Source of the DNA: an uncultured Lachnospiraceae bacterium
GTDB taxonomy: Bacteria > Bacillota > Clostridia > Lachnospirales > Lachnospiraceae
Reading direction: 5' to 3'
Length of the DNA: 36,865 bases
Assembly (NCBI GenBank): GCA_904420225.1
Contig: CAJFUP010000001.1
Coordinates: forward strand, 1 to 36,865
Part shown: positions 17,690 through 34,075 of the stretch, piece after piece
How positions within the stretch are numbered: position 1 is the first letter of the stretch
Layout of the letters: the number at the start of each line of letters is the position of its first letter
Notes under the pieces: generated by a model
What the model saw: the letters and a program-made list of their open reading frames with translations, nothing else
What the model was told of the DNA's origin: nothing
The model's database searches: none
Translations under genes and position numbers: made by a program

Positions 17690-18427
17690 TTATAGGCTGC
17701 GAAGTTTCTGGAGAGCTTTGCTTCTGATCAGTATCGTCTCATGCTCTTCCAAAAAGGCTTCGGTGGCCAGAGGCGTAGAGCCGACAATGGATCCGTATTC
17801 AGACAAAACATTGCACAGTTGGTTGAAACTCTCCGGTGTATGGCCGGATTTATGAACAGCCAGATAGTAGAGGCCGTTGGACTCGTTTTTATACAGAGAA
17901 TTGTCGCCCTCATAAGAAGGAGAGACGGCGTGGGCAGCTTCCGTGACAGTGTCCAGATCCCGGAAAGAGAAGACGCGGGATAGATCCCTGGGCGGCTCAT
18001 CCGATGTCTCCGCATTTCCAATATCCTTGGTCAATTGGGAGTTTTTGGAAAAGGCATCCAGAATCTCGTCGGCACGGGAAAAGACTTCTCTGCTTGAATC
18101 AGGGAGTTCTTGGTCGTCCACATCCAGTTCTTCCATATTGCCGGGAGCAAATTTTGCGAAGCGAGTGTCCAATTCTTCTGGATCCTCCATTTTTGTGATC
18201 AAGAGGACAATGGTGTCCTCTGCCATGGGGATGGCTTCTATCATAAGCGGAATATCTTCGGCGTTGAAATCCAGTTCATAGGAAGCGCGAGTGAGCATTT
18301 CACGGAACAGGGAGCGGGCTTTCTCACTGCCGTAGGCCAGTTCGTTCAAATTAATATGGCGTTCCAGCAGGTCGCCGCGGCTGAGCGTACACTTGATTTG
18401 ATTTTCGTTGACTCGTTCCAGTTTCAT
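17690..18427 (-). CDS. mecA: Adaptor protein MecA
   Basis: MKLERVNENQIKCTLSRGDLLERHINLNELAYGSEKARSLFREMLTRASYELDFNAEDIPLMIEAIPMAEDTIVLLITKMEDPEELDTRFAKF. Confidence 0.93.
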   Translation of the reverse strand: MKLERVNENQIKCTLSRGDLLERHINLNELAYGSEKARSLFREMLTRASYELDFNAEDIPLMIEAIPMAEDTIVLLITKMEDPEELDTRFAKFAPGNMEELDVDDQELPDSSREVFSRADEILDAFSKNSQLTKDIGNAETSDEPPRDLSRVFSFRDLDTVTEAAHAVSPSYEGDNSLYKNESNGLYYLAVHKSGHTPESFNQLCNVLSEYGSIVGSTPLATEAFLEEHETILIRSKALQKLRSL

Positions 18428-18753
18428 AATATCACATCCTTCCATTCAGGTCCTTTTGTATCGGTATGCTCATATGAAGCAAAAATTCCATATGGCGACA
18501 CCTTCCCTAATTATATTATACAGTATACCTTCGGAAATATCCATTGTAAAGAGAAAAATGATGAAAAATTTATGTATAGTGTAGCACTCTAGTAAGAGCA
18601 TCGACGGGATTGTGCAGAGGTGAAAACGTGCAGCCGTGAGATTGTTGCTGATGGCAAAGAAACAAATTGTGTAAGAAATATGCGAAATTTACACAAAATG
18701 AGTAAAAAAATAAAAAAAATTATGGGTTTACGAAAAAAATAAGATCAATACTC

Positions 18754-18782
18754 TTGAAAAAAGGCGGAAAAAGACGTAAATT
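18754..18782 (+). promoter_or_regulatory. Candidate promoter of an untranslated RNA
   Basis: TTGAAA (18754-18759), 17-nt spacer, TAAATT (18777-18782); no convincing ORF downstream. Confidence 0.4.
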
Positions 18783-18784
18783 AT

Positions 18785-19145
18785 TGATATGGATAAGCAA
18801 ATGTATACCATCGATGGAACCCCATACGTCTCTTCTATGCTGGGATGCAGGCCCTTGAGGGCAAAATAAGAAGAAAAACAGGAACATCCGACAGATGGAA
18901 GATTATCCGACCCGTTGTCCGGAAGTGTGATAATATATCGAATCAGTCTCAATGCGGCATCCGGACCAAACACGCGGCGCGGGATGCGGAAAGGGAGGGA
19001 GTGGAACTTTTCCTCAAAAGGCGGCAGTCCGGCGGATTTCAATGGAGAACATATTTGCGGGAGAATCCGCATAAGCAAGGGAGAACCGTTGGAGGAAACG
19101 CCTTCTGCGCGGCGCGGACGGGGTGAAAGAAGCGGTTTTTGAGAC
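18785..19145 (+). ncRNA. Candidate structured noncoding RNA of unknown class
   Basis: Large ORF-free gap; hairpins GCCC-TTGA-GGGC 18851-18862, GGATG/CATCC 18843-18889, GCATCC/GGATGC 18957-18987, CTTTT-CCTC-AAAAG 19007-19020, TGCGG/CCGCA 19056-19071 or GCGGATT/AATCCGC 19032-19070; weak terminal stem plus TTTTT ending 19140. Confidence 0.4.
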
Positions 19146-19233
19146 TAGATTGTCAAAATATGGTGAATTTCAAAAAATCCTTGGCGAATAATGGCGGATT
19201 TTGCGATGTATTTTAGTACAATTCCGAAAAAAG

Positions 19234-19614
19234 TTAAACATCCCGAGGCCTTTTTGTGGTATGATTATGTTTGGAAAGATCAGAAAAGACTTTTTCGTAA
19301 TTCTGCGCCAGGTAGTCGGCATAAAGATGCAGTTCTAGTCTGGCGTCATCGGGAAAGTCAGGAGGAAGGATCATCACATTGTGAAACGGTTTATACGGCT
19401 GAGGGATATCTGTCAGGCCCAGCAGGTAATCGACAGATACTTGAAAGTAGTTTGCAATTAGGATTTTTAAATCGTCAGATGGTTCGCTTTTATTGCGCTC
19501 ATAGGATGAAATGGAGTGTTTATTAATATTTAGCACAGAACTTAAAGCGTCTTGGGTTAAACCAGCATTTTTGCGCAGCTCGTATAAACGTTCTCCAATC
19601 ATAAAATCCTCCAT
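19234..19614 (-). CDS. XRE-family helix-turn-helix regulator
   Basis: IGERLYELRKNAGLTQDALSSVLNINKHSISSYERNKSEPSDDLKILIANYFQVSVDYLLGLTD. Confidence 0.9.
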   Translation of the reverse strand: MEDFMIGERLYELRKNAGLTQDALSSVLNINKHSISSYERNKSEPSDDLKILIANYFQVSVDYLLGLTDIPQPYKPFHNVMILPPDFPDDARLELHLYADYLAQNYEKVFSDLSKHNHTTKRPRDV

Positions 19615-19769: not shown

Positions 19770-20084
19770 ATGTACAACTTCGCGGGACTTTTTATCAGAA
19801 CCCTGAAAGAAGATTTCCGTGATGAGAATGTTCATCACGCGCTGGAGGTAGTGGACCAGGCATATAGGAAACAAATGGAAATCCTGATTCAAGGGAAGGC
19901 GGCCAGAGACCTGGATATAAAAAAGGTACCAGAGCCGTTACGGCAGATGCTGGAGGATGAAATCATTGCGTTTATGGATGTATTTCGTGAATTTGGCGGA
20001 ATCAAGCCGGGAGAACATGACCAGAAGGCGGTCAGAGACTATGAGATTATAAAAGCATACAGGAGCATGATTCAGGAAGACTGA
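19770..20084 (+). CDS. Hypothetical protein, 104 aa
   Basis: Strong RBS AAAGGAGGACGCG-ATG; MYNFAGLFIRTLKEDFRDENVHHALEVVDQAYRKQMEILIQGKAARDLDIKKVPEPLRQML...; predicted helical. Confidence 0.7.
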   Translation: MYNFAGLFIRTLKEDFRDENVHHALEVVDQAYRKQMEILIQGKAARDLDIKKVPEPLRQMLEDEIIAFMDVFREFGGIKPGEHDQKAVRDYEIIKAYRSMIQED

Positions 20085-33795: not shown

Positions 33796-33900
33796 TTCTC
33801 TTATTTGAAGTGATGGAGATACATAGGATCGATGAAGTCACGGCAACCCCTTTGCGAGGAAGGTGCCAACCTGAGCGAGAAATCGAACAATAAGAGGTGG
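33796..33900 (+). promoter_or_regulatory. SAM-I (S-box) riboswitch
   Basis: P1 CTCTTATT / AATAAGAG; core GATCGATGAAGTCACGGCAACCCC...GGAAGGTGCCAACCTGAGCGAGAAATCGAACAATAAGAGG; followed by an intrinsic terminator and metK. Confidence 0.95.
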
Positions 33901-33937: not shown

Positions 33938-34075
33938 GTGATGCTGTGTATCATAAAAACGCTGCGCCACGGATGCGCGCTGGCGCCAAGAGAATGGAAC
34001 ATCTTCAAGGGAAACTGTGTCAGCGCCGCGGCACAGTTTCCCCTATGGAACAGACGGCGCAGAAATGAGGAGATT

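Follow-up and report, generated by a model that had tools for sequence, protein, structure and literature searches.

A promoter-bearing noncoding element with a conserved hairpin upstream of mecA is a candidate small RNA gene of Ca. Fimimorpha

Structured noncoding RNA motifs found by comparative genomics of intergenic sequence (for example, PMC6429828 and PMC11109978) lie in long intergenic stretches with a promoter of their own and combine conserved loops and a hairpin of variable loop length with the lack of a coding signal. Here we describe a block that shares these features in the genome of an uncultured Lachnospiraceae bacterium (about 90% complete) of the genus Ca. Fimimorpha, and that differs from such motifs in being known from only three species, in its thin covariation, in having no match in Rfam 15 and in an overall sequence that has diverged as neutral sites do. 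The 6S RNA (RF00013) is, like the candidate, intergenic and a few hundred nucleotides long, but a true 6S gene, 95–96% identical among the three species, is found elsewhere in each genome; the block has no match to the 6S covariance model, and 6S identity was ruled out. The CsrA sponges CsrB/RsmZ resemble the candidate in GGA richness, in one species only, and differ from it in that CsrA was undetected here and that the relatives show no significant GGA enrichment.

The block lies in a 36,865-nt stretch of contig CAJFUP010000001.1 (hereafter, the window), between mecA and a small XRE gene (Table 1). The initial annotation, made from the letters of the window, had pointed to a block without a convincing ORF at this place, and the interval is indeed a real noncoding gap, in which the mechanically called ORFs (93 aa on the plus strand, 116 aa on the minus strand) have neither a Pfam match nor a conserved frame. 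For a three-species comparison we used the window together with Ca. Fimimorpha excrementavium (G005) and Lachnospiraceae bin_3_DannyCat (G007), the nearest relatives compared. The gap upstream of mecA recurs in both congeners. Synteny is complete in G007, where mecA, the gap, the XRE gene or its remnant (the gene is decayed there) and a gene for a 104-aa protein follow one another; in G005, it extends up to the XRE gene, at which the contig ends. The 104-aa protein gene, which adjoins the locus at 19770–20084 (+) of the window, has no Pfam match and is conserved in G007. Farther along the window, a SAM riboswitch (RF00162, 65.8 bits) occupies 33798–33896 (+), ahead of an ORF at 33938.

Table 1 Features of the mecA–XRE locus in window coordinates
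Feature	Position	Strand	Observation
mecA	17690–18445	−	PF05389, E=1.3e-67
Noncoding interval mecA/XRE	18446–19233	.	No conserved frame; flat codon-phase differences; most indels not multiples of 3; ORFs without Pfam match
mecA promoter region and leader	18489–18567	−	Divergent from candidate; most conserved stretch (three-species alignment)
Sigma-A-like promoter TTGAAA-N17-TAAATT	18754–18782	+	Same position in G005 and G007
P1, 5′ arm CTTCTATGCTGGGATG	18832–18847	+	15-bp helix, all three species; 2 doubly changed pairs
P1, 3′ arm CATCCGACAGATGGAAG	18885–18901	+	Duplex beats shuffles in each species (p 0.002, 0.009, 0.046)
P2, 5′ arm	18915–18923	+	Pairs with 18960–18969; weakly supported stem closing island loop
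Island TGATAATATATC.GAATCAGTCTCAATGC	18928–18955	+	Nearly invariant, three species
P2, 3′ arm TCCGGACCAA	18960–18969	+	Pairs with 18915–18923
Island GATTTCAATGGAGAA	19035–19049	+	Three-species alignment
Island TTGGCGAATAATGGCGGATTTTGCGATGTATTTTAG	19181–19216	.	Three-species alignment; without codon periodicity
Small HTH_3/XRE gene	19234–19614	−	
Island TGTGGTATGAT	19255–19265	+	Reads as extended −10 element; inside 3′ end of XRE gene

A search of Rfam 15 at gathering scores, covering RNase P, tmRNA, SRP, riboswitches and other families, matched no family in the block; the initial annotation had seen no signature of RNase P, tmRNA, SRP or common riboswitches. With the threshold relaxed to E up to 10, the sole match in the block was a sub-threshold histone stem-loop on the minus strand, and the relatives' loci gave nothing at gathering or relaxed thresholds. 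The GGA richness that had suggested a CsrA/RsmA sponge of the CsrB/RsmZ type amounts to 19 GGA in 18784–19145, with 7 ANGGA in the window. Compared with dinucleotide shuffles, this enrichment holds for the window (p=0.011), but is not significant in G005 (p=0.16) and is absent in G007 (p=0.72). The GC content of the candidate (18784–19145) is 51% in the window, 43% in G005 and 35% in G007, and the higher value in the window by itself explains part of its GGA count. A csrA gene (PF02599) was undetected in all five congeneric genomes tested, that of the window (about 90% complete) among them, by a search that was positive in E. coli, B. subtilis and T. maritima. Because csrA was undetected and only the window shows the GGA richness, we rejected the sponge reading for these genomes and consider its chance negligible.

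We also considered a small plus-strand protein gene that has decayed or evolves very fast. G005 and G007 do share an open stretch, DDNIS.SVS...FFCG...MENKRR, which is broken by frameshifts in the window; their frames free of stop codons, 113 codons long in G005 and 94 in G007, align at E=4.6e-6. Against such a gene, in the best frame that G005 and G007 have in common the differences fall evenly on the three codon positions (41, 33 and 45), no codon phase was seen in ungapped blocks, and the gaps that are not multiples of three number 7 of 11, 7 of 11 and 7 of 9 in the three pairwise alignments. Furthermore, the reading frame of the 20-nt conserved block CAGGGAAAAGGCAG.CACAGG differs between the two relatives, a start codon is absent before the conserved part in G007, and third positions within the 18928–18955 island are mostly unchanged. 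The ORFs tried in the block and in its relatives gave no Pfam match, barring a weak sub-threshold match to Sld5 (E=6.5e-4) by a translated piece of the gap in the more distant congener G006. With no triplet periodicity, and with indel lengths that mostly do not divide by three, protein coding at the block is in practice excluded, as judged from the alignments, and we regard the small protein gene as highly unlikely; no coding signal was seen of the kind expected from the decayed coding sequence that the initial annotation had named as a refutation.

Pairwise identity across the gap among the three species is 32–54% with gaps and 45–61% without, approximately the level of the 4-fold degenerate sites of mecA in the same species (46–51%), and outside the promoter and the islands the divergence of the gap equals that of synonymous sites. 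The promoter noted in the initial annotation is present and is kept across the three species as CTTGAAAA-AGG...GTAAA(A/G)T, and the mecA promoter region contains a promoter-like TTTACA-17-TATACT on the minus strand. In the densest 25 columns of the candidate (18928–18955), 22 are invariant, a value reached by 0 of 20,000 column shuffles; on the strength of this invariance far beyond column shuffles, the islands are very probably under selection. The island TGTGGTATGAT is identical in the three species, even in G007 with its decayed XRE gene. This island (within 19245–19275 of the window) looks like a promoter of the extended −10 type that runs antisense to xre. No direct or inverted repeats were found. 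Conservation at the nucleotide level in several species, as looked for in a structured noncoding RNA gene and named as a check in the initial annotation, was thus found here in three, with the promoter, the helix P1 and the islands all kept in the two related species.

P1 extends to 15 bp the GGATG/CATCC hairpin of the initial annotation, and 97.8% of its 45 pair cells are standard, versus 44–51% with the partner slid. Its loop length differs greatly between species, that of G007 being over 20 nt longer. Despite this longer loop, a covariance model that combined the window with G005 found the held-out G007 (48.5 bits, E=7.7e-13) and set both P1 arms there, the 3′ arm on the same motif. A sequence-only model scored 25.9 bits on G007 and placed the same arms; as models R1 and R2 carry unequal information at each position, the bits gained by R1 over R2 are no clean measure. 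As to the covariation that the initial annotation had asked for, two P1 pairs differ on both sides and a third on a single side among the three sequences, and 54 of 500 shuffles equal this. Two P1 pairs become U-G in some species, which identifies the plus strand as the sense strand of the helix. P1 is the best-supported helix of the block, with a three-sequence covariation that is suggestive and short of decisive.

The arms of P2, around the 18928–18955 island, differ in sequence between species and gave a combined p=0.018. In G005 and G007, a further 12-bp helix, GGCAGACACAGG/UUGUGUCUGCC, joins conserved arms separated by approximately 110 nt and appears in both free-energy folds. A domain model of this third helix, built from G005 and G007, did not find the window, and a version of it in the window, considered by eye, was dropped after a test. 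All other hairpin strings in the initial annotation are present in the window, but most are not conserved: TCCGACA/TGTCCGGA, GCATCC/GGATGC, CTTTT-CCTC-AAAAG and TGCGG/CCGCA were not seen as conserved hairpins in the alignments, and GCGGATT/AATCCGC (P5) was dropped after a non-significant pairing test (Fisher p=0.34). The weak stem and TTTTT proposed as the end of the transcript at 19140 fared no better, as the T-run is not conserved and is not among the terminator-like sites predicted; no conserved terminator was found in the three-species alignment. The single-sequence fold of 18785–19150 (+) has z=−1.73, with 7 of 100 shuffles as good, and the values for the three species (−1.7, −0.9 and −1.2) are ordinary; the minus-strand fold was not better than shuffled sequence. 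RNAalifold gave z of approximately −3.3 at 18859–18890 on the plus strand and −1.7 to −1.8 on the minus strand. The structured noncoding RNA of the initial annotation is therefore unremarkable as a single-sequence fold, but comparison of the three species supports an element that is noncoding, carries a promoter and keeps at least one hairpin.

The main rival to a small RNA gene is that the islands are DNA-level promoters and operators spread across a long intergenic region from which no stable RNA is made. The island sequences show strict conservation, with a spacing that would suit regulatory sites, two of the islands resemble −10 elements (TGTGGTATGAT as an extended −10), the best-conserved stretch is the mecA promoter, the island TGATAATATATC contains the dyad GATA-N3-TATC, and structure support is modest overall. 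This explanation nevertheless leaves unaccounted for both the 15-bp pairing of P1, with its compensatory and G-U changes, and the conserved complementary arms that lie approximately 110 nt from each other in the two relatives; moreover, the neighbouring XRE protein cannot be the required regulator in G007, because its gene is decayed there. We consider DNA sites possible, if on the unlikely side. Alternatively, the conserved parts could belong to a 5′ leader or antisense transcript and serve read-through towards the 104-aa gene at 19770, with plus-strand transcription from 18754 and 19255 running against the xre mRNA. Both promoter-like islands face the plus strand and a plus-strand gene does lie downstream, but approximately 1 kb and an opposed gene intervene, no conserved terminator or anti-terminator was found, and G007 retains the islands despite its decayed XRE gene; such a transcript seems improbable.

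Homologs outside the three species were not found by pattern, DNA or model searches. The covariance-model search of 387 family genomes found only the window and G007, and the best other match (E=0.004) was dismissed as a chance expectation over that many genomes. A search of 397 family genomes for the island pattern gave, besides G007, four weak matches that are not homolog-like. BLAST of the block against phages and plasmids gave nothing, and we found no literature on an RNA at mecA in Lachnospiraceae. In the distant congeners G001 and G006, the gap upstream of mecA (L042 2250–2725 and L044 2212–2715) carries noncoding-looking nucleotide islands, GTCAGAGGGC, GGGGAACAGCCAAT, TTCGGGTTACGAA and GTCAAAATGAAATTCAA, and shows neither a consistent frame nor an Rfam match. 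A hairpin shared by these gaps, UUCG-GGUUA-CGAA, resembles part of the P1 loop of G007 below significance, and the model match in the distant congeners reached 10 bits (E=0.22). These two genomes may hold a loose counterpart of the element at the corresponding place, in which case the RNA would be an older one of the mecA locus that changes fast.

Taken at the level of the genomic comparison, the likeliest reading, to which we give about even chances, is that the block holds a plus-strand noncoding RNA gene that evolves fast and is restricted to this clade. The promoter, the 15-bp P1 and the invariant islands occur at the same locus in three species in which no frame is kept; counting against it, the candidate has drifted in the same species whose known 6S RNA is nearly identical. 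The candidate RNA would be transcribed from the promoter at 18754–18782, starting near 18789, and would extend approximately 350–450 nt in the direction of the XRE gene's 3′ end. P1 and perhaps P2 would hold the island UGAUAAUAUAUC..AUCAGUCUCAAUGC out single-stranded, where it could pair with a target RNA or bind a protein, and the RNA would in this way act as a small regulator. A search for trans targets with the complement of the two loops brought up no target common to the genomes, and those exact matches in the genome of the window that were looked at fall in open frames. More tentatively, and with rather low confidence, the element could represent a new class of structured regulatory RNA restricted to Ca. 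Fimimorpha, with P1, a closed island loop and, in two species, the third helix.

The conserved islands and the promoter are the strong clue to this locus, and the GGA counts and single-sequence folds that prompted the finding are weaker ones. If the block is transcribed, this uncultured gut lineage would have a small RNA gene absent from the catalogues, an RNA locus with frozen loops in surroundings that drift almost throughout at the synonymous rate, of a kind that family-wide searches miss.
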